Of a stretch of 64,000 nt of DNA, positions 34,888-49,073 are shown one piece after another. The DNA is from Amycolatopsis bartoniae (GTDB lineage Bacteria > Actinomycetota > Actinomycetes > Mycobacteriales > Pseudonocardiaceae). The position numbers and the translations under genes were made by a program. Numbering within the stretch: the first letter of the stretch is position 1; every line of letters starts with the position of its first letter. Below the pieces are notes generated by a model, which saw nothing but the letters and a program-made list of their open reading frames with translations, was not told the origin of the DNA and ran no database searches. Where the stretch lies: NCBI RefSeq assembly GCF_014191255.1, contig NZ_JACHWH010000011.1:1-64000 (forward strand), written 5' to 3'.

Positions 34888-34932
34888 TGTGACCCCGAGG
34901 TGCGAGATGCGGATCGAAGCGGTACTTCCGCC

Positions 34933-35913
34933 ATGGCCACGAACGTTCCTCCTGATTCCGTCGAGGCCGATCTGGTACGTGAGCGAGCGGTGACGGCGAT
35001 GCAGGTGCTGCGTGAACTCATCCCCTGGGAGGGGTACGCCCTCTCAGCCTGGGACGCCGTGTCAGGAACCCACCGCCACGTCACACTGGCGAGCGAGGGT
35101 TACTCCACGCGGGTCCAGGCCCACATGAACGACGCCTTCGTCCAGGAGAATCCCGGTTTTCAGCTCTTGCACACCCGCGTACCCCACGCGCTGAGGTGGT
35201 CCGACCTCGCCCGTGATTGGCAGGTCGAGTTCTCCAAGACCTTCTCCGCGGAAGCGGTCCTGATCCCGGCGGGATTCAAAGAGGGCGCGACGATGTGCCT
35301 GCGGCTCCCGGACGGTCGCTACACCGGAGCGCTGCACATCAGCTGGGCACGTCCGCACGACGCCAGCGACGAGGCACGACGCACGATCGAGGGCTTCCGG
35401 CCACTACTCGCGCAGGCGTGTGACCTGCTGAGCGCGCTCCCGGCCGAGCAGCAGGTGGGTCCCGACGCCCACGCAGTGGTCATCTCCCCCACGGGGACCG
35501 TCTCGCAGATGCCCGGGCGATCGGCCGGACCGGTTCTCCTGGAGCACATGCCCAACCGTGTGCTCCACGACCTGGCTATGCGTGGCTCGGTTCGCCGGCG
35601 CTATCTGTGGGCAGGCCCGAAGGGGAGCTGTCACCGTATCGAAGTCATCCCGTGCCGCGGTCAGGCCACCCTGATCAGCGAGGAACAGATCCCGTGGCCC
35701 TTCGACCTCAGCCCCCGGGAGGCCCAGATCCTGCACCTGGTGGCACAAGGATTCTCCAATCCGCGGATCGCCGGGGAGCTCTTCATCAGTCCGCGCACGG
35801 TCTCCACCCATGTCGAGCACCTGCTCGACAAGCTCGCATGCGAGTCGCGAGCGCGGCTCGCGGCGATCGCGGCCGGCGCCGACCTTGTTCTCCTCAACGC
35901 CACGGACGCCTGA
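34933..35913 (+). CDS. LuxR-type transcriptional regulator
   Basis: A 326-residue regulator with a C-terminal LuxR helix-turn-helix at about 258-320 (LSPREAQILHLVAQGFSNPR, IAGELFISPRTVSTHVEHLL) and an N-terminal GAF-like sensor domain (about 30-190). ATG 34933 is chosen; GTG 34900 is possible. It lies just left of the amidase and SSS-transporter genes and may control them. Confidence 0.87.
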   Translation: MATNVPPDSVEADLVRERAVTAMQVLRELIPWEGYALSAWDAVSGTHRHVTLASEGYSTRVQAHMNDAFVQENPGFQLLHTRVPHALRWSDLARDWQVEFSKTFSAEAVLIPAGFKEGATMCLRLPDGRYTGALHISWARPHDASDEARRTIEGFRPLLAQACDLLSALPAEQQVGPDAHAVVISPTGTVSQMPGRSAGPVLLEHMPNRVLHDLAMRGSVRRRYLWAGPKGSCHRIEVIPCRGQATLISEEQIPWPFDLSPREAQILHLVAQGFSNPRIAGELFISPRTVSTHVEHLLDKLACESRARLAAIAAGADLVLLNATDA

Positions 35914-36031: not shown

Positions 36032-37384
36032 TCAGCTCATCGCGGCAGCGGTCCGGAGCAGGGTCGCCTCCGAGCCGGGCGGCCCGACCAGTTGGAGCCC
36101 TATCGGCAGCCCGTCAGCATGACCGACCGGTACCGACATGGCTGGGAGCCCGAGAACGCTCCACGGGCTCGTCAGCGACAGAAGGGCCGCGCGGATGTCG
36201 ACGGGGTGGCCATCGATCTTTCCGGCACGCGCACCCACAACCGGCGCGGGCATCGGCGTCGTCGGCAAGGCCAGGAAGTCGTAAGTGTCGAAGAGGTCGC
36301 TCACGACCGCCCGGACACGCTCACGAACGGCCAGAGCCGCCGACCACGATGTGACGGTGACGGTGGCGCCGGCGAGCAGGCGATCGCGGACCTCGGCGTC
36401 GTACAACTCGGGGTTCGACTCGAGCCGATCACGATGTACGGCGAAGGCCTCGCGTCCCTGGATGACCGCATAGGCCGACCGGAGCTGTTCTGCCTCGGGC
36501 AGGACCACCTCGCCAGTGACAAGGCCATCCACGCGGCCCCGGACGGCGCCGACGACCTCCTGCGACGTCGGGTGCAGCAGCCCGGGCAGCACCCAGCCGA
36601 GACGTGGCGCCGGGGCGTCGGCGCGCGGTGCATTGGTCGAGTGTGCCGTGCTGAGCGCGGCCCAGAGCACCGCCGCGTCCTCGGCGCTGCGCGCCATGAC
36701 GCCCACTGTGTCGAGTGAGGCCGAAAGGGGTAGCACACCCTTGGTGCTGAGAGCGCCGTAGGTCGGCCTCAGTCCCACGATGCCGCATAAGGCAGCGGGG
36801 ATGCGTGCTGATCCACCCGTGTCCGTGCCGAGCGCCAGCGGGACGATGCCTGCCGCGATCGCCGCGGCCGATCCGCTGCTCGAGCCCCCGGCCATGTGGT
36901 CAACGGCATGGGGATTGCGCGTGGGGCCGCTGGCGGCACGGTCTCCGGTCGGACCGTTGGCGAACTCGTGGGTGGCGGTCTTGCCCACGATGACAGCACC
37001 GGCATCTCGAAGACGGCGAACGCACGCAGCGTCGGTGGATGCGAGGTGGTCGCGACGGTGGCGGGACCCGGCCGTGGTCGGGAGACCGCGCACGTCAATC
37101 ATGTCCTTGACCGCAACCGGCACGCCATGGAGAGGCCCTCGGACCAATCCGCTCGCGAGCTCACGGTCGGCCTGGCGTGCCGCGTCGCGTGCCCCGCGTT
37201 CGTCCAACGTGACGAAGGCGTTCACGCGGGGCTCCCACCGTGCGGCGGCGCTCAAGGACTCCTCGACCAGTTCGATCGACGACACCCGCCGGGCGCGCAG
37301 GTCGGAGCCGAGCTGTCGCAGGTCGAGCTCAGCGAAACGCCCCGCGCCAGTGGCGAGGGATTCGGCTCCAGTGGTGGACGACAC
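36032..37384 (-). CDS. Amidase (amidase-signature family)
   Basis: A 450-residue serine hydrolase with the Ser-cisSer-Lys triad: Lys93 in VAVKDMIDV, the cis-Ser in AGGSSSGSAAA (about 169-170) and the nucleophile Ser192 in GTDTGGSARIPA. GTG 37384 has AAGGAG four bases upstream. It is divergent from a DUF3311/SSS transporter pair (170 bp between them), which suggests joint control and import of an amide. Relatives act on short aliphatic, aromatic and ureido amides; GatA is excluded because no GatB/C neighbours exist and the locus is catabolic. Confidence 0.9.
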   Translation of the reverse strand: MSSTTGAESLATGAGRFAELDLRQLGSDLRARRVSSIELVEESLSAAARWEPRVNAFVTLDERGARDAARQADRELASGLVRGPLHGVPVAVKDMIDVRGLPTTAGSRHRRDHLASTDAACVRRLRDAGAVIVGKTATHEFANGPTGDRAASGPTRNPHAVDHMAGGSSSGSAAAIAAGIVPLALGTDTGGSARIPAALCGIVGLRPTYGALSTKGVLPLSASLDTVGVMARSAEDAAVLWAALSTAHSTNAPRADAPAPRLGWVLPGLLHPTSQEVVGAVRGRVDGLVTGEVVLPEAEQLRSAYAVIQGREAFAVHRDRLESNPELYDAEVRDRLLAGATVTVTSWSAALAVRERVRAVVSDLFDTYDFLALPTTPMPAPVVGARAGKIDGHPVDIRAALLSLTSPWSVLGLPAMSVPVGHADGLPIGLQLVGPPGSEATLLRTAAAMS

Positions 37385-37554
37385 GGGACTCCTTCGTGAC
37401 CGGGCGGCATCGCGACTCTAGCGAGCCCGGAGAGCCAGGCCGAGGCCTCAAACCCCGAATACGTCAGCTGACCGATGCCCCTCGATCGAGCCCATTCCTA
37501 CGCTCGAAGTCTCGACACCAGGAATTCACGCCCTGGTCGACCAAGTGAGGTTTC

Positions 37555-37791
37555 ATGGAACGCAGGAAGGACGAACAGCGGCGTCCGGGCACAGTGCTGT
37601 TCGGCGCCTTGTTCGCGCTGGTCTACGCGGTCGCACTGGCGCCGCCGGTGTACATCACGCTCTCCCGGCAACATGGGATGTTGCTCTCAATCCCAGCGTC
37701 GGTCTGGTACATGCTCCTGGTCTCCGCGGCCGCGATCGCCGTGACCTACGGGCTCTGGCTGCTCGAGCGCCGGCGGGGGGTGCTGGACTGA
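37555..37791 (+). CDS. Small membrane subunit, DUF3311-like
   Basis: A 78-residue protein with two hydrophobic spans (about 14-35 and 48-68), a conserved-looking PPVY between them and a basic tail. It overlaps the SSS transporter start (TGATG). Small two-span proteins of the DUF3311/YhjC type are encoded directly before SSS symporters (Bacillus yhjC-yhjB) and are thought to be accessory subunits. Confidence 0.75.
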   Translation: MERRKDEQRRPGTVLFGALFALVYAVALAPPVYITLSRQHGMLLSIPASVWYMLLVSAAAIAVTYGLWLLERRRGVLD

Positions 37792-39323
37792 TGATCATCA
37801 CCTTCGGCTCCCTGGCGCTGTTCTTTGCCGTCGTCGTCGGTGTACTGCACACCACCAAGCGACGGCGCGCCGCCGCCGCATCCTTCAGCGACTACGCAGT
37901 AGGGGAGCGCTCTTTCTCCAGTTGGTTCGTGTCGATGGCCTACACCAACTCGTGGTGGCCCGGATCGACGTTCACCGCAGTTTTCGGCCTGATGGTGGCC
38001 AGCGGTCTGGTCGGTCTGTACTTCCTGGTCTACTCCGTCCTCGGCGTCCTGGCGATGTACTTCATCGCACGCCCGGTCTGGAAGTGGGGCAAGCAGTTCG
38101 ACCTGCGTACCCAGGCGGATCTGCTGGCTCTGCGCTACAACAGTCCCGCGCTCAAGCTCGTGGCCAGCGCTGTCAGCGTCGTCGCGCTCCTCCCGTGGCT
38201 CATCCTGGGTCTGATCGCCATGGGCGCCGTCATCCAGTGGGCGTCGCTGGGACACCTCTCGGTCGCCGACTCGATCCTGATCGGCATCCTCGTTCTCGTC
38301 GTCCGCCAGTTCTGGACCGTGCAGATGGGCATGCGCGGACTGATCGTGACCGACATGGTCCAGGGGATCGTGGCCTATCTGGGCTCGGCCGTCCTCTGCC
38401 TGGGTCTGCTCTTCTTCTACTTCCACGGTCTTTCGAACCTCAACCGCCTGAGCGAGAGCCAGCTCAGCCTGCCCGGCTTCGGATCCGAGAACGGCGGCTT
38501 CTACTACTTCGGCATCGTCGCGGCCGGCATCATCGGCAGCTTGTGCTGGCCCATGATCTTCACCCGTATCTACACCGCGGCCAGCGTGCAGGAAGTCAAG
38601 AAGGGATCCCTGCAGACCATGGTCATCGGCTTCGGGTTCTTCGTGCTACTCGTCGCAGTTGCGCTATGCGCGGCACCCCTTCCCTTCGCTGCGAAGGAGC
38701 CCGTTTCGGCGTTCTTCGCGGTCTCGCAGGATGCCGGCGGCACGTGGCTGCTCGCGTGCTCATTGGTCGTCGTCTTCGCGGCCGGCATGGGCTTCGTCGA
38801 CGGCGTCACCCAGGCCATCGGCACCCAGGTCGCCAACGACATCGTCGGGGTCATCCGCCCGCTGCGTGACAAGCAGGAGCTCTACCTGGCCAAGGCCGCC
38901 ATGGGAGTGAGCGCGATCATCGCCGCCGTCATCGCCTACCGGATCTACGACTCCCCCAACCTGGCAGGCGTCACGCAGCTGGCCTACCAAGCGATCATCC
39001 AACTGGCCGTTCCGATCTTCGGCGGACTCGTGTGGCGCCGCGGCACCAAGGCAGGAGCGATCACAGGACTCTTGACAGGCGCCTTGGTGGCGCTCGTGCT
39101 GACGGTGCCCTACATGAACGCCGGTGGTGCCGTTCCCTGGCTGAGCGGCCTCGGTTCCGGACTGGTGGGCCTGGTCGCCAACCTGGCTGTGTTCGTCGCC
39201 GTCAGCATCGCCCGCCCGGACGACGCCCCAGAGCGTCACCGGGTCGACCAGCTCTTCCGAGCGGCGCGATCACGTACCGCGTCTCCGGGACCTGTCACCA
39301 GCCCGCTCCCCGACCCCGCCTGA
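37791..39323 (+). CDS. Sodium:solute symporter (SSS family)
   Basis: A 510-residue transporter with about 13 predicted spans. Family features include the N-terminal YAVGERSFSSWF, AYTNSWWPGSTFTAVFG and, late in the protein, VDGVTQAIGTQVANDIVG. It is coupled by TGATG to the small membrane protein and followed after 32 bp by an alpha/beta hydrolase and the DUF1116 gene. Relatives move pantothenate, proline, urea and organic acids with sodium. Next to an amidase and AllG-like protein, a ureide or amide substrate is plausible. Confidence 0.9.
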   Translation: MIITFGSLALFFAVVVGVLHTTKRRRAAAASFSDYAVGERSFSSWFVSMAYTNSWWPGSTFTAVFGLMVASGLVGLYFLVYSVLGVLAMYFIARPVWKWGKQFDLRTQADLLALRYNSPALKLVASAVSVVALLPWLILGLIAMGAVIQWASLGHLSVADSILIGILVLVVRQFWTVQMGMRGLIVTDMVQGIVAYLGSAVLCLGLLFFYFHGLSNLNRLSESQLSLPGFGSENGGFYYFGIVAAGIIGSLCWPMIFTRIYTAASVQEVKKGSLQTMVIGFGFFVLLVAVALCAAPLPFAAKEPVSAFFAVSQDAGGTWLLACSLVVVFAAGMGFVDGVTQAIGTQVANDIVGVIRPLRDKQELYLAKAAMGVSAIIAAVIAYRIYDSPNLAGVTQLAYQAIIQLAVPIFGGLVWRRGTKAGAITGLLTGALVALVLTVPYMNAGGAVPWLSGLGSGLVGLVANLAVFVAVSIARPDDAPERHRVDQLFRAARSRTASPGPVTSPLPDPA

Positions 39324-39355
39324 GCCCTGACCCCGCACAACAGGAGACACGACGC

Positions 39356-40243
39356 ATGAGCACCATCGAGCACACCATCGACGTCCCGCACCTCGGGGGT
39401 TCGGTGATCGGTGCGACCTTCGGCAGGCCTTACGATCCTGAACTGCCCACGCTGGTCATGATCAACTCTTACACCACCTCCGCCGACCTGTACCGGCCGC
39501 AGTTCGCGGACCCGGCGCTGAACGGGGTGGTGAATCTCCTCGCCCTCGAGCCATTCGGGCACGGCCGCACCCGAGCGGGGTACGAGCACTTCACCTACTG
39601 GGACAGCGCGACCGCCAACCTCCAGGCGCTCGCCGCCCTGGGCATCAGCGAGGCATTCGTGCTGGGGACCTCCCAGGGCGGCTGGATCGCCGTCCGCATG
39701 GCATTGATGGCGCCCCAGGTCGTCAAAGGGCTGATCCCGCTGGGCACGTCGCTCGACACCGAGAGCCAGCGCACCCGCGACCTCGGTTGCTGGGACGGTC
39801 CGGGGTTCTGCACACCCTTCATCGACGCATTCGCCGATTCGGTCGATTCTGATTGGGTGGTGCCGGACCAGTTCGTGGACGACACCTTCGACGCGGCACT
39901 CGGCGGTCTGACCCACGACGAGCGCAAATTCTGGCTCACGACATATCGGAGGAATTACGCCGGAGACGCCGGCCGGCACCGCCTTCGCCTGTGCACGATC
40001 AACCTGCGCGATCGCGACGGTCTCCACGGCCGGTTGGATGAGGTGCGACCGCCGGTGCTGTGGCTGCACGGCACCGCCGACCAGGTCTACTCGATCGCCA
40101 ACGCCGAAGAGGAGATCAAACTCCTCACGCGCTCGGCCGACGCCCACCTCGAGGTGATCGACGGCGGCCACCACTTCCTGAGTGCTTCGAAGCCTGATCA
40201 GGTGAATGCGGCCGCCGCCAAGTTCATCGCGAGGTGGGCATGA
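39356..40243 (+). CDS. Alpha/beta hydrolase
   Basis: A 295-residue alpha/beta hydrolase. The nucleophile Ser is in LGTSQGGWIAV, an acid lies in HGTADQVYS, and the His is in DGGHHFLSAS. The ATG follows CAGGAG. It ends in an ATGA overlap with the DUF1116 gene, so the two products are made together. The cap region (FCTPFIDAFADS) is unlike common lipases. It could open a lactone or cleave a C-C or amide bond. Confidence 0.87.
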   Translation: MSTIEHTIDVPHLGGSVIGATFGRPYDPELPTLVMINSYTTSADLYRPQFADPALNGVVNLLALEPFGHGRTRAGYEHFTYWDSATANLQALAALGISEAFVLGTSQGGWIAVRMALMAPQVVKGLIPLGTSLDTESQRTRDLGCWDGPGFCTPFIDAFADSVDSDWVVPDQFVDDTFDAALGGLTHDERKFWLTTYRRNYAGDAGRHRLRLCTINLRDRDGLHGRLDEVRPPVLWLHGTADQVYSIANAEEEIKLLTRSADAHLEVIDGGHHFLSASKPDQVNAAAAKFIARWA

Positions 40244-41523
40244 CGAGCGCACACGTCGCCGGCCAGGCCCCGAGGACCGACCGCGAGGGAGCCAACGAGC
40301 CGGCGGTCGCGGCCATGCTGGCTGTCGACCCGATCCTGGTCGATGTCGCCCCCGCGCTCGAAGCCCTGCCGGGCATGACGCCGCACACGATCCTCGTCTC
40401 GGGAGCGCCGCTGGAGTGGGGGCAGTACACCGGTGGTCAGCGTCGGGCGGTCCTCGGAGCGGCCGTGTTCGAGGGGCTCGCCGACTCGCTTGCGGAGGCC
40501 GACGCCTTGCTGCACGAGGGGAAGATCATCGTCCGGCCCTGCCATGACTACGGCTGCGTCGGCTCCGTCACGGGCGTCACCTCGGCCTCCATGCCGGTGT
40601 GGGTTGTGGAGGATCCGGTCACCGGCGGTCGCGGGCACTGCCTGCTCTACGAGGGCAGCGAGCGTCAACGCCTGACCTACGGAGTCTGGAACGACGCAGT
40701 GCAGCGACGCCTGACCTGGTTGCGAGAGGTCTTGGCTCCGCAACTGTCGGCAGGTCTGCGGCATGTCGGTGGGCTGCGGCTGAGCCCCATCATCCGCCGC
40801 GCTCTGGGCATGGGGGATGACCTGCACAGCCGCAACACCGCCGCTACCGCCGTCCTGTATCAACAGTTGAGCGGACCGGTCCTCGACGCCAACGGGCTCG
40901 GCGCTGCTACCCGTGAGGTTCTCGACTTCCTTCGTCAGAACGACTTGTTCTTCCTCCACGTCGCCATGGCGACGGGCAAGTGCATCGCTGATCGCGCAGC
41001 AGGGATGGTGGGGAGCACCATCGTGACTGCCATGACGCTCAACGAGCGGCAGTTCGCGATTCGCACCGCCGGCACCGGACGACGCTGGTTCCGGGCGCCG
41101 ATTCCCCCGCTACGGGCGAAGTTGTTCGACGGCCTCAGGCCCGAGGACACGGCGTTCATGGGCGGCGAAAGTCTCATTACCGAGACGGTCGGCCTGGGCG
41201 GCATGGCTGCAGCCGCGGCCTTCTCCCTCCAGGACTACAGCGGCGGTTCGGTCGATCACATGGTGCAGACGACGAACGCGATGTACGACATCACGCACGC
41301 CGAACATCCGACATGGAAGATTCCGTACCTAGCCTTCCGAGGCGTCCCGTTCGGGATCGACGCGGCACAGGTAGCCGCGTCCGGCATCACGCCGAGCATT
41401 CACATGGGCGCAGCACTCCGCGAGGGTGGTCACGCTGGCGCGGGGCTCCTGATCGCGCCGGTCGAACCGTTCCAGGACGCGGTCAAAGCATTGCGCGAAA
41501 CGGGACTCGGTCGAAGACCGTGA
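40240..41523 (+). CDS. DUF1116 protein (AllG/YlbE-like)
   Basis: A 427-residue DUF1116 protein (FEGLADSLAEADALL, HDYGCVGSVTGVTSASMPVW, GVPFGIDAAQV). In E. coli the DUF1116 protein YlbE/AllG works with FdrA/AllF and YlbF/AllH as oxamate carbamoyltransferase at the end of anaerobic allantoin breakdown. Neither partner is encoded here. ATG 40240 overlaps the hydrolase stop; a GTG two codons upstream is less likely. The solitary member, coupled to an alpha/beta hydrolase, may have a different carbamoyl- or amide-related reaction. Confidence 0.85.
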   Translation: MTSAHVAGQAPRTDREGANEPAVAAMLAVDPILVDVAPALEALPGMTPHTILVSGAPLEWGQYTGGQRRAVLGAAVFEGLADSLAEADALLHEGKIIVRPCHDYGCVGSVTGVTSASMPVWVVEDPVTGGRGHCLLYEGSERQRLTYGVWNDAVQRRLTWLREVLAPQLSAGLRHVGGLRLSPIIRRALGMGDDLHSRNTAATAVLYQQLSGPVLDANGLGAATREVLDFLRQNDLFFLHVAMATGKCIADRAAGMVGSTIVTAMTLNERQFAIRTAGTGRRWFRAPIPPLRAKLFDGLRPEDTAFMGGESLITETVGLGGMAAAAAFSLQDYSGGSVDHMVQTTNAMYDITHAEHPTWKIPYLAFRGVPFGIDAAQVAASGITPSIHMGAALREGGHAGAGLLIAPVEPFQDAVKALRETGLGRRP

Positions 41524-41565: not shown

Positions 41566-42090
41566 ATGAGCAAGGACCAGATCGTCGCGGCCATCTGCGA
41601 GCAGGCGACCCACATGCTGCCCGCCGAGCTGACGGCCGAGTCCGCGCACGACTTCCTCCAGCACATCCGCACCCTGGCGCGCGAGGAGGACCACGCCCGG
41701 CTGGTCGCCCAGATCTACGCCGAGGCCGCCGTCTCCCCCGCCCTCGCGGCCCTGGTCCAGCGCCAGCTCGAGGACCTGCGCCAGGCGGTCGCCGCGCTTC
41801 TGCCGCATCGCAAATCCGCCGACGCGGAACGGGTCGCCGAAGTGTTCGTGGCCCTCTGCCACGCCTACACCCAGCAACTCGCCGTCCGCGGCGATCCCGA
41901 CCCGGCCCCCTACACCGCGGCGCTGATGGCGATCATCGAGTGTGACGAAGGGGCCGCGGGCCACCGAGGTTTCCGAAAAACGCCGGCGTGCCCCACACCC
42001 GCCTCGCGGTGCGGTGTGGCGGCAACCGGTGCACAGCGAATTCAGGGCAGCATGGCGAGCCAGATGCCGCTGCACACGTCGCTGACGTGA
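41566..42090 (+). pseudogene. TetR-family regulator lacking its DNA-binding domain
   Basis: The frame begins SKDQIVAAICEQATHMLPAE, which is where a TetR effector domain starts after the ...YF.SKDQIV turn. The helix-turn-helix that should precede it is missing. The helical effector domain continues to about 41944, then the frame decays and runs antisense into the next TetR gene. It is a 5'-truncated gene. Confidence 0.65.
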
Positions 42091-42671
42091 GAAAGGCTCG
42101 CCTCGGTGTCGCTTTGCACGGAGGCTCGATAGAAATTGCGCTCGGTCATCCAGCAGAGCGCGGAGGCCACCTCGTGCGCTGAAGACGGACCGTCGTCCGG
42201 CAGCCCTGCTCGGCGGAGAACGTCGCTCATCACCGCGATGTATCGATCCACAGTGTCGTTCCACATGACCCCGATGTCCGGGATGACGGCGCCCAGCTCG
42301 ACAGCGGCCCGCATGACTCTGCCATGCCTGCGCCAGGATCCCTCGACACCGCGCATGGCTCGGAGGATGCTCTCGCGCGGATCCGATGTCGTGCCGGCAG
42401 CGGTGGATTCCGCGTCCTCGGCGAGCTCGCCGACTGTTCGACGCACGAGCGCTGTCAGCACGTCCTGTTTGGAGGCGAAGTAGAAGTACAAAGCGTTGCG
42501 GGTGATTCCCGCGCCGCGCGCGATCGACTCCACCGTCATGCCCTCGAGCGTCTCGGTCTCGAGCTGTGCCTCGGCGGCGTCGAGGATCGCTTGCTCCCGC
42601 AGGTCACCTTTGCGAGGCGTTACGCGGCGCCGTCGGCGGGTGGATGAATCTGCGCTCGTCACGCGATCCAT
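42042..42671 (-). CDS. TetR-family repressor of the 42-50 kb operon
   Basis: A 209-residue TetR protein with helix-turn-helix at about 30-75 (EGMTVESIARGAGITRNALY, FYFASKQDVLTALV), resembling the EthR-like branch. ATG 42671 is chosen; GTG 42683 is possible. It is the last gene of the seven-gene operon starting at 49927, 50 bp after the oxidoreductase. The inverted repeat at 49966-49996 is its likely operator. Confidence 0.88.
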   Translation of the reverse strand: MDRVTSADSSTRRRRRVTPRKGDLREQAILDAAEAQLETETLEGMTVESIARGAGITRNALYFYFASKQDVLTALVRRTVGELAEDAESTAAGTTSDPRESILRAMRGVEGSWRRHGRVMRAAVELGAVIPDIGVMWNDTVDRYIAVMSDVLRRAGLPDDGPSSAHEVASALCWMTERNFYRASVQSDTEASLSHVSDVCSGIWLAMLP

Positions 42672-42721
42672 CCTAGTGGTCACCGCGTCCGTGCCCGTTC
42701 ATCAATGCGGCGATCCGGCGA

Positions 42722-43687
42722 TCACCGCACCTCCAGCACGATCTTGCCGAGAGCACCGCGGCGGTCGAGGGTGCGCAGGGCCTCGGCAGCGTCAGAGAGC
42801 GGGAAGCGGTGCCCCAGGGCCGGCGAGAATGCGCCGGACTCCAGATGCGGCCGGATCTCCGCCCACTGTTCGGCGAGGTAGGCGGGTCTGGGGAGCCAGT
42901 AGGCTCCCCACCCGACTCCGACGGCCGACACGTTGTTGAGCAGCAGCCGGTTGAGGCGGACGGTCGGGATCTCGCCTCCGGTGAAGCCGATGACGAGGAG
43001 CCTGCCCTCGGCGCGCAGGCTGCGAAGGGAGTCGGTGACGCGGTCGCCGCCGACCGGGTCGACCACGAGGTCGACGCCCGCGCCGCCGGTGATGTCGGCG
43101 ACGGCCGCCCGGAAGTCGCCGGCGTCGACCGCGTGGTGAGCGCCGGCGCGCAGGGCGAGTTCACGCTTGTCGTCGCTGGACGCCACGGCGATGACGGTGG
43201 CCCCGTACGCCCCGGCGACCTGGATGGCGGCGGTACCGATGCCGCCGGCGGCTCCGTGGACGAGCACCGATTCCCCGGCCTGCAGCCGGCCGCGGCGCAG
43301 AAGGCCGAAATGCATGGTGAGGTAGTTCATGGGAATGCCCGCGGCGGCGGCGAAGGACACGTTCGCGGGCAGCGGGAAGACGGCGTGGGCGGGAACGGCC
43401 ACCTGCTCGGCCCAGCCGCCGTAGACGCTGACCCCGGCCACGCGGTCTCCGGTGTGGAAACCCGACTCCGCTGGAGCGGAGTGGACCACGCCGGCGACCT
43501 CGGAGCCGGGGACGAACGGGTAATTCGGCTTCATCTGGTACTGCCCGCGGCTGAGCAGCAGGTCAGGGTAGGTGACGCCGGCCGCGTGCACGTCGATGAC
43601 GACGTCCGCGCCCGGATCGGGAGCCGGCACCTCGGTCAGTACGGCCGCGCCGGGCCCGTCGGGGGAAGCGATCCTGATCGCGTACAA
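42722..43687 (-). CDS. NADPH:quinone oxidoreductase-like protein
   Basis: A 321-residue zinc-free medium-chain reductase (AAGVTYPDLLLSRGQYQMKP, VPGSEVAGVV, VHGAAGGIGTAAIQVAGAYG for NADPH). The start is TTG 43687 with GAAGGGAAC upstream, an unusual but well-supported choice. It follows the MBL gene by 27 bp in the operon. It may reduce an enone or enoyl intermediate of the pathway. Confidence 0.88.
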   Translation of the reverse strand: MYAIRIASPDGPGAAVLTEVPAPDPGADVVIDVHAAGVTYPDLLLSRGQYQMKPNYPFVPGSEVAGVVHSAPAESGFHTGDRVAGVSVYGGWAEQVAVPAHAVFPLPANVSFAAAAGIPMNYLTMHFGLLRRGRLQAGESVLVHGAAGGIGTAAIQVAGAYGATVIAVASSDDKRELALRAGAHHAVDAGDFRAAVADITGGAGVDLVVDPVGGDRVTDSLRSLRAEGRLLVIGFTGGEIPTVRLNRLLLNNVSAVGVGWGAYWLPRPAYLAEQWAEIRPHLESGAFSPALGHRFPLSDAAEALRTLDRRGALGKIVLEVR

Positions 43688-43714
43688 GGCGTTCCCTTCA
43701 AGCTGGTGAGTGGG

Positions 43715-44647
43715 TCAGACCACGGTGCGCATCGGCCGGCCGCGCCACGTCACGGCGTCAGCGAGCGCCGTCACGACATCGACCTCGCCGGCGCCGCGGT
43801 CGGCATAGGCCCGGTGCAGGTTCGGCACGAGCCGTTCATTGTCGGCCCAGCCGGAGAAGCGGCCCAGGTCGGCGGCCACGGCGACCTCCAGGGGCTCTTT
43901 GCCGTTCTGGATGCCTTCTGCCGCGAGCGCCTGGATCAGGCGGTAGTACTCCTCGTGGTCGGCCAGCACGCGGTCGAGATCGGGTCCGCTGATGACCGGT
44001 CCGTGGCCGGGGACGATCTGCGTCGCGCCGAACCCGGTGAGCCACTCGAGCGACCGGAGGGCGCCGTCGACGCTCCCCATGAACACCAGTGGGGTGAGCC
44101 CGTTGAACAGGAGGTCGCCGGTGAACAGGACGCCTTCGTCGGGGATCCACGCGACCCCGTCTCCGGTGGTGTGAGCCGGATATCCGGGGTGCCGGAGCTC
44201 GACACGCAGGTTGCCGGCGTCGAGAGTGAGGTCGTCGGTGAATTCGACCTCGGGAACGCGGCGGGTGACCTCGCCCCAGTTCGGCACGGGCTCCCACAAC
44301 GGGGGGCACCCGTCGATGACCGGATCCGTGCGCAGGTAGTCGCACATCGCACGCTGCCCGATCAGCATCGTGTCCGCAGGCAGGAGCGAGTTGCCGTACG
44401 TGTGGTCGCCGTGGGCGTGCGTGTTGAACGCCCATCGGATCGGGGTTCCCACGTTGTCGCCCACGGCAGCCAGGAACGCCCGGGTCCGGGTCGCGGTGGC
44501 GCACGTGTCGACGATGCACAGGCCGCGCTCGCCGGCGACCGCTCCCGCGTTGTTGACCCACCAGGTCCCGTCCGCCTGGATCCAGGCCCACACCCGGTCG
44601 GTGAGCCGGACGAGTTCCGCTCCGCTGACATCGTGGTCGGCGTTCAC
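43715..44647 (-). CDS. MBL-fold metallohydrolase
   Basis: A 310-residue metallo-beta-lactamase-fold enzyme. The zinc motif HAHGDH is at 77-82 (NTHAHGDHTYGN), with a further His at about 156 (PGYPAHTTGD), Asp in FTGDLLFNG and His in VPGHGPVISG. ATG 44647 overlaps the CoA-ligase stop. A thioesterase, lactonase or ring-opening role in the operon is plausible. Confidence 0.88.
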   Translation of the reverse strand: MNADHDVSGAELVRLTDRVWAWIQADGTWWVNNAGAVAGERGLCIVDTCATATRTRAFLAAVGDNVGTPIRWAFNTHAHGDHTYGNSLLPADTMLIGQRAMCDYLRTDPVIDGCPPLWEPVPNWGEVTRRVPEVEFTDDLTLDAGNLRVELRHPGYPAHTTGDGVAWIPDEGVLFTGDLLFNGLTPLVFMGSVDGALRSLEWLTGFGATQIVPGHGPVISGPDLDRVLADHEEYYRLIQALAAEGIQNGKEPLEVAVAADLGRFSGWADNERLVPNLHRAYADRGAGEVDVVTALADAVTWRGRPMRTVV

Positions 44648-46641
44648 TGCGCTACCTCCGTGCGGCGTGCCGCGGCGATGGCCGCGTAGTGGTCGATGAG
44701 GGACGGGTCGTCGAGGCTGCCCGCGCTGGCGACGTGCTCCGGCGCGGCGCCTTGGAAGAGCCTCTTGACCGGGACCTCGATCCGCTTCCCCGTGCGGGTA
44801 CGCGGGATGCCGGGGACCGCGAGGATCTCGTCCGGGACGTGCCGGCGGCTGGCGCTGTCCGCGATCACCCGGCTGATCGTCTCGCGCAGCTCGTCGTCCA
44901 GTTCGGCGCCGTCCGCCAGCTGCACGAACAACGGCATCCAGTACTTTCCGTCGTCCAGTTCCACGCCGATCATCATCGAGTCGGCGATCTGCGGGATCCG
45001 GGTGAGCGCGGCGTACACGTCGGCGGTGCCCATGCGAACGCCGCCCCGGTTGAGGGTGGAGTCCGAGCGCCCGGACACGATCGCCGTGCCTCGTTCGGTG
45101 ATTTCGACCCAGTCGCCGTGTCGCCAGACGCCCGGGTACGTGGAGAAGTACGCGTCCCGGTAACGACTGCCGTCAGGGTCGTTCCAGAAGTACAACGGCA
45201 TGGTCGGCATGGGTGCGGTGATGACGAGCTCACCGTCCCGGCCCACCACGGGTTTGCCGTCGTCGTCGAAGGACGCCACGGCGACCCCGAGCATGGGGCC
45301 GGACAGTTCGCCTGCCCACACGGGAAGCAGGGGGCTTCCGCCGAAAAACCCGCTGGCGACGTCGGTGCCTCCGGTGGAGGACACCAGCTGGGGATGCCGG
45401 CCGACGGCGTCGTAGACCCACTTCGCGGTCGCGGCCGGCAGCGGGGATCCGGTCGAGCCGATGAAGCGCACCCGGGACAGGTCGTACTCGCGGCCCGGCT
45501 CAAGCCCTCGCGCCGCGCAGCTGGTGAGGTAGCCCGCGCTGGTTCCGAGGTGGGTGAGGCCCCACTGCGCGGCATGAGCCCATTGCACGTCGAGATCCGG
45601 ATAGGTCGGGCTCCCGTCGTAGACGACTGCCGTGGCGCCGGTCAGCATCGAGGAGACGACCACGTTCCACATCATCCAGGAGGTCGAGGTGTACCAGTAG
45701 AAGACGTCGCCGGGCCTGAGGTCGTTCTGCAGGACGAGCATCTTGTACTGCTCGAGCAGCATGCCGCCGTGGCCGTGCACGATGCCCTTCGGAATGCCCG
45801 TGGTGCCGGAGGAGAACAGGATCCACAGTGGATGGTCGAACGGGAGGGAGACGCAGGAAAGCGGCTCGTTGCCGCCGATGACGTCGTGCCACCTGTGCAA
45901 CGCGACCCCGTCCCGGACGTCGGGGGCCGGGTGAGATTCCCCGCGGCCGACCCAGATGCACGCCCGCACGGTGGGGAGCTCGCCCAGGACCTGCAGCGCG
46001 GCCGCGGTCCGGTCGTGGAGCTTTCCGCCGAAGTGGTAGCCGTCCGCCGCGATCAGGACCTTCGGTTCGGTCTGCGCGAGGCGGTCCAGGACGCTTCGCA
46101 CGCCGAACTCGGGCGCACACATCGTCCACACCGCTCCGATCGAGGCCGTAGCGAGGAACGCGATGACCGCGTGCTCGGTGTTGGGCAGGTAAGCCGCGAC
46201 CCGGTCCCCCTCACCCACGCCCATCCGGCGCAGCGAGGCGGCAAGTGCGCCGACCTGGCGTCGAAGGTCGGCGCCGGTGAGCTCGACGACCGCGCCGGAT
46301 TCGGTGCGCGCGACCAAGGCCGGTTGGTCGTCGTCGTGGGCCGCCAGGATGCGTTCGGCGAAGTTCACCCGGACGGCGGGGAACCAGACAGCACCCGGCA
46401 TCGCCGCGTCCACCAGCGCATCCTCCGGTGCGACGCCCCTCGCTACGTCGAAGTACTCGGCGACGTCGGCCCAGAACGCAGCCAGGTTGTCCACCGACCA
46501 CTGCCACAGTTCGGCGTAAGAGCCGAACGAGACGCCATGCCGCCGGCCGAGCCAGGCTGCGAACTCGGCGAGACGGCTTCCCGCACCACCATCGGGGGGC
46601 GACCACAGCAGCTCAGCCGACGCCGTGGAGTCGTGCGTCAT
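44644..46641 (-). CDS. Acetoacetyl-CoA synthetase-like ligase
   Basis: A 665-residue ANL-superfamily enzyme matching acetoacetate-CoA ligase over its length. It has an N-terminal ACAS_N domain, the P-loop ILFSSGTTGIPKGIVHGHGG, the STSWMMWN motif, GDWVEITERG, and the catalytic Lys in RTGKRIEVPVKRL. ATG 46641 has GGAAGGG at good spacing; ATG 46662 lacks one. It would convert a 3-oxo acid plus CoA and ATP to the thioester, feeding thiolysis. In this operon the substrate may be acetoacetate or a related beta-keto acid from ring cleavage. Confidence 0.9.
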   Translation of the reverse strand: MTHDSTASAELLWSPPDGGAGSRLAEFAAWLGRRHGVSFGSYAELWQWSVDNLAAFWADVAEYFDVARGVAPEDALVDAAMPGAVWFPAVRVNFAERILAAHDDDQPALVARTESGAVVELTGADLRRQVGALAASLRRMGVGEGDRVAAYLPNTEHAVIAFLATASIGAVWTMCAPEFGVRSVLDRLAQTEPKVLIAADGYHFGGKLHDRTAAALQVLGELPTVRACIWVGRGESHPAPDVRDGVALHRWHDVIGGNEPLSCVSLPFDHPLWILFSSGTTGIPKGIVHGHGGMLLEQYKMLVLQNDLRPGDVFYWYTSTSWMMWNVVVSSMLTGATAVVYDGSPTYPDLDVQWAHAAQWGLTHLGTSAGYLTSCAARGLEPGREYDLSRVRFIGSTGSPLPAATAKWVYDAVGRHPQLVSSTGGTDVASGFFGGSPLLPVWAGELSGPMLGVAVASFDDDGKPVVGRDGELVITAPMPTMPLYFWNDPDGSRYRDAYFSTYPGVWRHGDWVEITERGTAIVSGRSDSTLNRGGVRMGTADVYAALTRIPQIADSMMIGVELDDGKYWMPLFVQLADGAELDDELRETISRVIADSASRRHVPDEILAVPGIPRTRTGKRIEVPVKRLFQGAAPEHVASAGSLDDPSLIDHYAAIAAARRTEVAQ

Positions 46642-46668
46642 CTCTTTCCCTTCCTCGTCCATCCTCTG

Positions 46669-47652
46669 TCACTTGATCGCCACCGCGCTGACCGGAGCTC
46701 CGGCGGCGCCGGTCAGCGGCAAAGGCGATGCGACGAACATGAACTCGTAGACGCCGTCGGCGGCGCAGTCCGCCGCGAGCGCGTCGAGATCGAACATCTC
46801 GCCGAACGCGATTCCGGTGTGCACCAGCGAGACCACGTGAAGCGGCTGGTAGACCCCGATTTCGTTCGGCCGTACCTCCACGCCCCAGGTGTCGGCCGCG
46901 ATCGCGGCGACACCCTGCCGGTGCAGCCAGGGTGCGGTGTGCAGGGACAGCCCCGGCGCCGGTCCGCCGGCGTAGTCGCCCCAGCGGCCACGCCGCTCGC
47001 CGAGGAAACCCGTGCGGAGCACCAGCGCGTCGCCCGGCTGGACTGCCAGGGAGTGGGCGGCGAGGAACTCCTCGAGGTGGGCGACGGACACCGCGTATCC
47101 GGGCTCCAGTGCGGCGCCACCGCGCAGTTGGGGCAGGTCCACGAGAACGCCGCGCGTGACGATTCGCCCGGCGTAGTTCTCGATGCCGTTGGATCGGCTG
47201 CCGGCGGAGGTGGACTCCGCCGCGGATCGCCCGTTGTACATCTTGCCGTCCCAGAAGATGTGCGACAGCGAGTCCCACTGGGTCCCGGCCTGGTTCGCCA
47301 TGATGACGATGTCGTCGGAATAGCCGAACCCCTTCGACGTACCCCCTCCGGGGAGGAAGTCCTGAGTGCCCGCAAGGTAATCCAGGCCCGTCGCCGTGGT
47401 CACCAGCTGCGGGTTGGACCGCAGGGAGCCGTCTTGCGGGCCGGTGTTGTCGTAGGGCATCGTGAGCGACACCGTCCGTCCCGCCTTCACCAGAGCGGCC
47501 GCGCGACAGATCGCGTCCGCGTCGATGAGGTTGACCGCACCGATCTCGTCGTCCTCGCCCCACCGCCCCCAGTTGGTGCACTGCTCGATGTAGCTGCGCA
47601 GCAGTTCGAGGTCCTCGGCCGGCGCGGGACCCGCGCTCGCGAAGTCGCCCAT
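46669..47652 (-). CDS. Cyclase-family (kynurenine formamidase-like) metallohydrolase
   Basis: A 327-residue protein of the PF04199 family. GTQWDSLSHIFWDGKMYNG is the metal-binding segment, with Gln where the classic HxGTHxD motif has His. Other landmarks are DLPQLRGG and WGVEVRPNE. ATG 47652 lies five bp after the amidohydrolase gene, so they are tightly coupled. Members hydrolyse amides, formamides or cyclic imides and use zinc or manganese. Confidence 0.87.
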   Translation of the reverse strand: MGDFASAGPAPAEDLELLRSYIEQCTNWGRWGEDDEIGAVNLIDADAICRAAALVKAGRTVSLTMPYDNTGPQDGSLRSNPQLVTTATGLDYLAGTQDFLPGGGTSKGFGYSDDIVIMANQAGTQWDSLSHIFWDGKMYNGRSAAESTSAGSRSNGIENYAGRIVTRGVLVDLPQLRGGAALEPGYAVSVAHLEEFLAAHSLAVQPGDALVLRTGFLGERRGRWGDYAGGPAPGLSLHTAPWLHRQGVAAIAADTWGVEVRPNEIGVYQPLHVVSLVHTGIAFGEMFDLDALAADCAADGVYEFMFVASPLPLTGAAGAPVSAVAIK

Positions 47653-47657
47653 GCCGG

Positions 47658-49073
47658 TCAGCCCGCCAGGTTGGCGAGCGCCAGCGCGGTCGTTTCGTCG
47701 AAGCCCTCGGCCGGAGTCGCGGGGAACGGCCCCCCAGCGGACCGAATCCGTTCGAGCACCCGGCTCGCGGACTCGTCGGCTTCGGCGAGAAGCTTGGGGA
47801 GGTCGTGACCGACCAGCACCCCGTCTCGCTTGACGAAGTTGCCGGCGACCAGGACGTGGCGGACGTCGGACGGCGTGGTCTGGAAGATCACCGTGCCGGG
47901 CGCGTCGACGACGGGATGCTGCCCGATGCCAGGACCACCCACGACCATCAGGTCGGCTTGTTTGCCGACCGTGATGCTGCCGACGACATCGCCGAGGCCG
48001 CAGGCTTCGGCACCGTTGACGGTCGACCACTCGAGCGCCTGCAGCGCCGTGGTGGTGACTCGTTCCACGTCCTTGCCTGCGAGGTTCAGGTGCTCGGTGT
48101 CGGCCCACCGCTTGAAGGCGATACCCAGGCGGGCCTGGCTTGCCAGGTCGCCCGAGTTCAGCGACACGACATCGCACGACAGCGTCGGCTTGACGCCGAA
48201 CTCCTCGCACTTCGCGAACACCGGGCGCCCCATGCCCATGTTGAGCTCGGTCTCGACGGAGATGGACACTTTCGCTCCCGCGTCGGCCAGCTGACGCCAC
48301 TGGTCGTCGGTGAGTGCGTTGCAGTGAATGTGCACCTGGTCGGGGCCGAGCAAACCGGCACGGGCGATCTCGTCGAAACCCGAGGGCATCTGCCAGACGC
48401 AGGCCATGTGGGTGGCGATGAGGGCGTCGTGGGCGCGGGCCAGCTCGATCTCGGTGCGCGTGTTCGAGAACGGCACGAGGCCGAGTTCGTTGAGCGCGAC
48501 ACCGAGCGTGACCAGACCGTCGCCGCTGAAGTAGGTGCCGGCGATACGCTCGAAGTCCCTCACCCGTGCGGCGTGATCGGCGAAGTGCGGCGGCGCGTAG
48601 GGGCTGCTCTCGAAGAAGCCGTAGCAGAACTTGGCACGGACACCCGACTCCCGCAGCCCGGTCACCGCTGCGTCGGAGTGCTCGGGGGTGTTGTTGCAGT
48701 GGGAGAAGTCCAGGACGGTGGTGACTCCGGCGTTCAGCGCCTCGAGCGCGCCGAGCTTGTTGCCCAGGTGCACGTCCTCAGGAGTGTAGGACGGAGAGAC
48801 GGCGAGGCGGATGCCGTAGAAGTAGTCGGCCAGCGTCCAGTCGGCGCAGATCGCGCGCATCTGGGTCTGCCAGGTGTGACGGTGGGTGTCCACCATGCCC
48901 GGCGCCAGCACGTGGCCCCGGATGTCGACGATGTCGGCGTCCTCGACGTCGAGGTGGGGGGCGACGGCCGCGATGACGCCGTCTTCGATGAGGACGTCGC
49001 CTTCGGGAAGGACACCGGTCGCGGGGTCCATGGTGATGATCTGCGCTCCGCGCAGCACAATTCGAGTGGTCAT
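47658..49073 (-). CDS. Amidohydrolase/deaminase (SsnA/AtzA-TrzN branch)
   Basis: A 471-residue TIM-barrel metal hydrolase. His64 and His66 in VDTHRHTW, a His in IATHMACVWQ, a His in VHIHCNALTD and the Asp of LSCDVVSLNSGD form the single-metal site typical of cytosine deaminase-like and triazine hydrolases. It probably removes an amino group or hydrolyses a ring amide. It lies 56 bp after the SDR and 5 bp before the cyclase-family gene. Confidence 0.9.
   Translation of the reverse strand: MTTRIVLRGAQIITMDPATGVLPEGDVLIEDGVIAAVAPHLDVEDADIVDIRGHVLAPGMVDTHRHTWQTQMRAICADWTLADYFYGIRLAVSPSYTPEDVHLGNKLGALEALNAGVTTVLDFSHCNNTPEHSDAAVTGLRESGVRAKFCYGFFESSPYAPPHFADHAARVRDFERIAGTYFSGDGLVTLGVALNELGLVPFSNTRTEIELARAHDALIATHMACVWQMPSGFDEIARAGLLGPDQVHIHCNALTDDQWRQLADAGAKVSISVETELNMGMGRPVFAKCEEFGVKPTLSCDVVSLNSGDLASQARLGIAFKRWADTEHLNLAGKDVERVTTTALQALEWSTVNGAEACGLGDVVGSITVGKQADLMVVGGPGIGQHPVVDAPGTVIFQTTPSDVRHVLVAGNFVKRDGVLVGHDLPKLLAEADESASRVLERIRSAGGPFPATPAEGFDETTALALANLAG

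Follow-up and report, generated by a model that had tools for sequence, protein, structure and literature searches.

A stand-alone branch of the DUF1116 (AllG) family and its predicted role in the cleavage of carboxylated amides

To our knowledge, DUF1116 proteins (AllG; Pfam PF06545) are otherwise known only as a component of a three-part enzyme of bacterial nitrogen salvage. Oxamate transcarbamylase AllFGH requires three genes, and the abstract and Discussion of its description do not assign roles to the individual subunits (PMC11326118). Here we analyse a DUF1116 gene of Amycolatopsis bartoniae, located in a stretch of 64,000 nucleotides (positions 1 to 64,000 of contig NZ_JACHWH010000011.1; hereafter the window). 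A sequence-only reading of the window had described this gene as coupled to an alpha/beta hydrolase (ABH) gene and linked to a sodium:solute symporter (SSS), a divergent amidase and a LuxR regulator, a layout confirmed by Pfam matches and coordinates (Table 1). The same reading had placed no AllF or AllH homologue nearby, in agreement with the absence of a profile match to either within the 64-kb window.

The stand-alone branch of the DUF1116 family

The window genome (7.76 Mb in 23 contigs, 99.98% complete) contains a single PF06545 gene, and its expected partners were sought throughout the assembly. AllH (PF11392) gave no match genome-wide, the control E. coli genome being positive. An FdrA (AllF) profile built from 13 sequences gave best matches of 610-716 bits in four of four FdrA-linked control genomes, just two matches of ~60 bits in the window genome, and best matches of 38-61 bits in each of five further genomes whose DUF1116 gene also stands alone (G527 among them, at only 81% completeness). 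The two window-genome matches, confined to the SucD-like part of the profile and located in open frames of 319 and 332 residues, were rejected as AllF; they are SucD-type, each with a SucC-like open reading frame (ORF) upstream, as judged by eye. We note that the genome has two copies of sucCD-like genes (L217 and L218, a label also given by eye). For the AllK-type carbamate kinase, a query taken from an FdrA-linked operon scored 198-682 bits in the four FdrA-linked genomes, one of which was its source, and found no match in the window genome; among five stand-alone genomes including the window's, it gave ~23 bits in three and nothing in two. FdrA and AllH homologues elsewhere in the genome, which the sequence-only reading had named as the finding that would count against it, were looked for in this way and none was found. 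Its suggestion that the DUF1116 reaction needs a different partner or none is supported by the genome-wide absence of the partners, as well as by the stand-alone state of the whole clade in our sample, described below.

In a family-level survey, PF06545 was present in 30 of 297 genomes. FdrA, AllH or carbamate kinase accompanied it in most of the neighbourhoods retrieved, and none of them was found in five genomes, the window's among them. A phylum survey returned 52 matches, 30 of them with loci (our own, that of G527 and 28 others), and FdrA adjoins DUF1116 in all 28 of the others (L069-L096). Stand-alone loci were gathered from genome contigs by protein patterns of eight FdrA-free sequences, a scan that selects on sequence type and not on gene context: 300 stretches matched, 258 were relatives, and the best 80 of the 258 were kept, yielding 78 loci. 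With ten further loci added and the chimeric L060 dropped, the set comprises 87 stand-alone loci, the fetched stretches of which vary in length (nine of the 87 are shorter than 10 kb). Within these stretches, no match to the FdrA or AllH hidden Markov models (HMMs) was found in any of the 87 loci. The dropped locus carries a truncated DUF1116 gene overlapping an FdrA-like stretch of 277 bits (L060:9564-10547, minus strand), as if fused or collapsed through deletion.

A single branch, with a Shimodaira–Hasegawa-like approximate likelihood-ratio test (SH-aLRT) value of 100, parts 91 stand-alone from 59 other proteins in a 150-row DUF1116 tree, a quick search with SH-aLRT as the sole support measure. 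The stand-alone state changes once on this tree, against a shuffled mean of 46.9, and the window protein is placed on the 91-row, FdrA-free side. Among the 59 other rows, FdrA is nearby in 55, AllH only in two (L049 and L055), and neither in two (L058 and L059); the latter two have carbamate kinase, lack FdrA and AllH in the fetched stretch, and are placed on the FdrA side of the tree. The node setting L143 outside the remaining 90 stand-alone rows has a support of 38. Two loci were treated separately: L181, predicted at 821 residues, was excluded from the tree for its length, so that the tree covers 86 loci and the counts 87, and L046, with its DUF1116 gene uncalled, was dropped from the tree and kept among the 32 comparison loci used below.

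The two branches are also distinguished by individual residues. Column 66 is G in all 91 stand-alone proteins and P in all 59 others, Q67 is present in 91 of 91 stand-alone proteins, and column 310 is E in 89 of the 91, against D throughout the other 59; the corresponding branch motifs are GGES (stand-alone) versus GDS (FdrA side), and GGQR versus GP. The window protein carries the clade motif residues G66, Q67 and E310, and has V at column 53, which is T in 95% of the stand-alone proteins and H in all others. A conserved core (D193, H196, R198, S311, E315 and D374, among others) is intact in both branches, and the family-wide residues kept in the window protein are N19, E78, D193, H196, R198, K247, W283, S311, E315 and D374. 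The structure predicted for the window protein (mean predicted local distance difference test score, pLDDT, 92.7) superimposes on PDB 3clq with a Z score of 59.9 and a root-mean-square deviation of 1.6 over 413 aligned residues at 37% identity. This entry was the sole clear match among the structures compared; the next row had a Z score of 2.6, and the weak rows (Z 2.1-2.6) were disregarded.

In sum, judged by sequence and gene neighbourhood, the DUF1116 family has a distinct and widespread stand-alone branch without AllF and AllH genes in the stretches examined. The survey of DUF1116 neighbourhoods, which the sequence-only reading had proposed for those with alpha/beta hydrolases, shows the FdrA-free loci to be a large, distinct clade, not a peculiarity of the window genome. 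No printed description of this branch was found in the open-access literature, preprints lying outside the search.

Predicted reaction and alternative roles

Within the branch, the window protein belongs to a nine-row subclade (SH-aLRT 99) with residues fixed in nine of nine members, T146, W150, H240, H388 and H398 among others. Three gene contexts occur in the subclade: the window module (window, L051 and L140), a NicX context (L139, L141 and L142) and a dapdiamide-like cluster (L034, L145 and L150).

The NicX context is found in Streptomyces brasiliensis (L139), Amycolatopsis pretoriensis (L141) and Pseudonocardia kunmingensis (L142), where NicX adjoins DUF1116 and scores 237-253 bits against Pseudomonas NicX. 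The 346-residue protein next to DUF1116 in L141 has no Pfam match and matches the 2,5-dihydroxypyridine 5,6-dioxygenase of PDB 7cn3 over its full length (251 bits). In addition, a flavin monooxygenase of L141 is closest to HspB among PDB entries (297 bits), a molybdenum hydroxylase trio is encoded in L142, and a flavin reductase is, with NicX, common to all three loci within seven genes of DUF1116 (by clustering). In the nicotine pathway, the 2,5-dihydroxypyridine dioxygenase Hpo produces N-formylmaleamate, which Nfo deformylates to maleamate, and orthologues function in nicotinate degradation (PMC6122326).

Four plasmid-borne NicX loci without DUF1116 (L229-L232) provided a comparison. The record of L229, from a Pseudomonas plasmid, is annotated with a FAD-dependent monooxygenase, an alpha/beta hydrolase, an Asp/Glu racemase and an N-carbamoylsarcosine amidohydrolase, which, from this annotation, the gene order and the Pseudomonas nic cluster, we take to be NicC, NicD, NicE and NicF. 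Matches to NicD, NicE and NicF were present in L231 (Embleya), the NicX of which is 59% identical to that of L141. In the fetched loci L139, L141 and L142, no match to NicD or NicE was found, and NicF gave one weak, isochorismatase-like match of 57 bits in L142 and none in L139 or L141. Genome-wide searches of S. brasiliensis and A. pretoriensis, each with one NicX copy, found no NicD orthologue, the matches being of 26-38% identity and no more than 56 bits (assembly completeness was not given for the genomes of L139-L142). In P. kunmingensis, NicX is present in three copies and NicD orthologues number two (73% and 53%); one of these lies next to the second NicX, the other ~8 kb from the third, and the DUF1116-linked copy has no NicD.

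Oxalurate, the substrate of AllFGH, is N-carbamoyl oxamate, and N-formylmaleamate is an N-formyl amic acid. Acyl-N cleavage offers the simplest link between the AllFGH reaction on oxalurate and the NicX context. As a family, DUF1116 proteins would bind carboxylated N-acyl amides and cut the acyl-N bond; in the transcarbamylase, AllF and AllH would turn this cleavage into phosphorolysis, whereas stand-alone members would act without them. We infer, tentatively, that proteins of the window subclade may cleave, by hydrolysis or acyl transfer, a C-N bond in an N-acyl amic acid or a similar carboxylated amide. The NicX-linked members would act on N-formylmaleamate, a concrete substrate prediction supplied by their context. 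In the window, a carboxylated amide would enter through the symporter. An ester or N-acyl group of it would be removed or opened by the ABH and the DUF1116 protein coupled to it, and ammonia would be freed by the amidase, with the LuxR protein controlling the module. A broader proposal is conceivable, although we hold it with some doubt: a self-sufficient DUF1116 branch might split N-acyl amic acids or carboxylated amides without AllF and AllH, CoA-ligase domains or carbamoyl phosphate, replace NicD after NicX in some actinobacteria, and serve an uptake-coupled amide module in the window. Such a branch may offer a one-protein system for the direct assay of DUF1116 chemistry.

Several points weigh against acyl-N cleavage by a DUF1116 protein acting on its own. 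The abstract and Discussion of the AllFGH study offer no demonstration of catalysis by AllG in isolation (PMC11326118). Two of the four DUF1116-free plasmid loci have no NicD match, namely L230 (Rhizobium) and L232 (Rhodococcus pyridinivorans; NicX with a CN-hydrolase and NicE- and NicF-type genes), and because these loci lack NicD without having DUF1116, the apparent exchange of NicD for DUF1116 is suggestive only. The unrelated ABH and the CN-hydrolase present in L139 and L141 could be the deformylase. Furthermore, no NicX match was found in the window, G283 (the genome of L051) or Aeromicrobium genomes, so the NicX argument is borrowed from relatives of 63-76% identity, and N-formylmaleamate from the NicX route is probably not the substrate in the window. 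Finally, a ligase-partner mechanism competes with this reading, most of all outside the window subclade.

In that mechanism, the stand-alone DUF1116 protein would still be a carbamoyl- or acyl-transferase module, but the part of AllF would fall to a different ATP-dependent ligase. The partner would be a type III-like glutamine synthetase (GS) in most loci, an ATP-grasp protein in L034, L145 and L150, and an unrecognised protein or the ABH in the window. In its favour, 65 of the 87 stand-alone loci have a GS-like gene within 5 kb of DUF1116 (for example L144:1551-2906 and L148:8525-9994), 47 have one within 1 kb, and it is found in none of the 32 comparison loci, a set that is taxonomically narrow because 28 of its loci come from one bacterial family (the others being L002, L136, L137 and L138). 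The best NCBIfam model for all 11 GS-like proteins scanned is type III glutamate-ammonia ligase, with five scoring above the cut-off. In the dapdiamide-like actinobacterial clusters, DUF1116 lies between ATP-grasp and MFS genes (L034:2050-12884, L145:805-14811 and L150:913-13566, assigned partly by clustering), and in all three the ATP-grasp gene and the start of DUF1116 share 4 nt (domain found in L034 and L145; L150 by clustering). L145 also encodes a DdaG-like ligase (below cut-off), PALP, OCD and asparagine-synthase-like proteins, and L034 an AspH-like protein. However, some GS genes are on the opposite strand or separated from DUF1116, a GS neighbour occurs in 0 of 9 members of the window subclade versus 65 of the 77 loci outside it, the GS HMM has no match in the 64-kb window, and the window module yielded no ligase. 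We regard a ligase partner as an unlikely explanation that nonetheless keeps appreciable weight.

The GS linkage itself points to one more amine or amide pathway, apparently not yet described, with actinobacteria and proteobacteria among its hosts. Part of the GS-linked loci also have a C26 gamma-glutamyl hydrolase, cytosine-type or amino-acid permeases, SDRs or arginase-family genes. The gene order SDR-DUF1116-SDR-c19-GS-GS-ABH recurs in L174, L175, L184, L196, L199, L212, L215, L134 and L135, with Nocardioides, Mycobacterium/Mycolicibacterium, Gordonia and Rhodococcus as hosts (plasmids in the Rhodococcus records). Two protein families of relatives, c19 (~364 residues) and c21 (254 residues), could not be named from Pfam or NCBIfam.

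A different substitution has also to be weighed for the subclade, in which DUF1116 would replace NicE or NicF and act as a cis-trans isomerase or an amidase of maleamate- or maleate-type acids. Beside the DUF1116-linked NicX, NicE and, in L139 and L141, NicF were without match (searched in the fetched loci, not genome-wide); the missing NicE leaves room for an isomerisation role, and amic-acid-like substrates are compatible with the oxamate activity of AllFGH. This chemistry is, however, further from the interconversion of oxalurate and oxamate than acyl-N cleavage is, and candidate amidases are present (the CN-hydrolase of L139 and L141, and the 57-bit NicF match of L142), which makes replacement of NicE or NicF rather improbable.

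Membership of the PF06545 family would fit an ordinary oxamate carbamoyltransferase subunit with AllF and AllH encoded elsewhere, a reading refuted at the sequence level, and left with next to no probability, because the FdrA, AllH and carbamate kinase searches of this nearly complete assembly found none of the three and their controls were positive; it would need analogues too divergent to be recognised. A decaying or neutral remnant of an AllFGH operon is just as improbable: beyond the missing partners nothing was found in its favour, and the intact ORF, the conserved core residues, the confident fold, the clade-fixed motifs and the presence of the module in three genera speak against it.

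Window genes and recurrence of the module

Table 1. Genes of the DUF1116 module in the window (positions in nucleotides from the first letter of the stretch)
Feature	Position	Strand	Length and match
LuxR-type regulator	34900..35913	+	337 aa; PF00196, 65.8 bits
Amidase-signature hydrolase	36032..37384	-	450 aa; PF01425, 335.9 bits
Small ORF beside SSS	37555..37791	+	78 aa; hydrophobic (judged by eye)
Sodium:solute symporter (SSS)	37791..39323	+	510 aa; PF00474, 57 bits
Alpha/beta hydrolase (ABH)	39356..40243	+	295 aa; PF00561
DUF1116 (AllG-type, PF06545)	40240..41523	+	427 aa, ATG start (alternative GTG opening at 40234); Pfam 230.6 bits (gathering cut-off 27; model positions 1-215 of 215)

The ABH and DUF1116 genes are joined by a 4-nt ATGA overlap at 40240, and the same 4-nt overlap is present in L051 and L140. 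The small ORF and the SSS gene share a single nucleotide, at 37791. The sequence-only reading had named this small protein a DUF3311 partner of the symporter: a small ORF does stand at the symporter, with homologues at the symporters of L051 (78 bits) and L140 (89 bits), but the DUF3311 label is unconfirmed, as the protein gave no NCBIfam match and the L140 homologue no Pfam match. The amidase gene diverges from the small ORF, SSS, ABH and DUF1116 genes across a gap of 170 nt, and the LuxR gene is on its far side, outside the interval 36032-41523 first considered. The best NCBIfam model for the amidase is of the AtzE family, with both models below their cut-offs (NF006631, 364.9 bits against 461; TIGR02715, 344.6 against 425.75), and its PDB relatives are 2dc0, ranked first, and 6c62, ranked second. 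The description of the locus as an amide catabolic module, read from the genes alone, fits this gene content.

The set of LuxR, amidase, small ORF, SSS, ABH and DUF1116 genes is also present in L051, from another genus of the same family (G283). In L140 of Aeromicrobium endophyticum, the order is LuxR-small ORF-SSS-ABH-DUF1116-amidase, all on one strand. By gene content and homology, the module is conserved in three genera, more than by chance. ABH homologues at E <= 1e-40 occur in 18 of 298 genomes of the order, and the 17 loci around the other homologues share no module part save the ABH, apart from a LuxR homologue that lies beside the ABH homologue in L115 with the rest of the module absent. 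The synteny seen among these ABH loci (a 207-residue protein gene in seven; several genes in L117/L124/L130 and in L127/L128) gave no substrate clue, and the ABH relatives on Agrobacterium and Rhizobium plasmids showed no common pathway, one of them adjoining an amidase. On Pantoea and Arthrobacter plasmids, related symporters have as neighbours an amidase together with a hydrolase of Zn-dependent or M20 type, a setting that fits the uptake of organic nitrogen.

Downstream, 42 nt past DUF1116, an ORF at 41566-42090 on the plus strand matches a TetR C-terminal domain only (PF17940, 30 bits). It has no DNA-binding domain match, overlaps at its 3' end the convergent TetR gene at 42042-42683 (minus strand), and resembles a truncated regulator. 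A separate gene block at 42722-49058 on the minus strand adjoins the module and includes quinone-oxidoreductase-like and 672-residue acyl-CoA-synthetase-like genes (labelled by eye), a metallo-beta-lactamase-fold gene (PF00753) and a putative cyclase gene (PF04199).

Comparison with known systems

The closest described relative is E. coli AllG (YlbE), a member of the same Pfam family with 37% identity to the window protein over 413 columns (BLASTP), near full length, and with the invariant family residues in common. The AllFGH system differs in that the window genome has no match to AllF, AllH or AllK genes, and P57, D301 and G260 of the FdrA-linked branch correspond to G66, E310 and E269 in the window protein. 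For members of the stand-alone branch, an automatic annotation as 'oxamate carbamoyltransferase subunit AllG' calls for caution. The whole-chain fold is shared with PDB 3clq, an Enterococcus faecalis DUF1116 protein of unassigned function.

DUF1116 proteins of the same family are found on an Aminobacter plasmid (L136) and a Citrobacter plasmid (L137), apparently in a nitrogen-heterocycle or ureide context. Unlike the window, both clusters contain FdrA, DUF2877 and carbamate kinase, beside ring-opening amidohydrolases. These clusters suggest that AllFGH-type enzymes may serve barbiturate- or cyanurate-like ring products besides oxalurate.

The N-formylmaleamate deformylase NicD/Nfo catalyses the same kind of step as that proposed for DUF1116 at the three NicX loci without NicD. 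NicD is, however, an alpha/beta hydrolase, of a family other than DUF1116, and the window ABH shares no significant similarity with it (best BLASTP match 28% over 25 residues, E 3.1). The step that NicD carries out with an alpha/beta hydrolase fold would, in the NicX-linked members of the subclade, be carried out by a DUF1116 protein.

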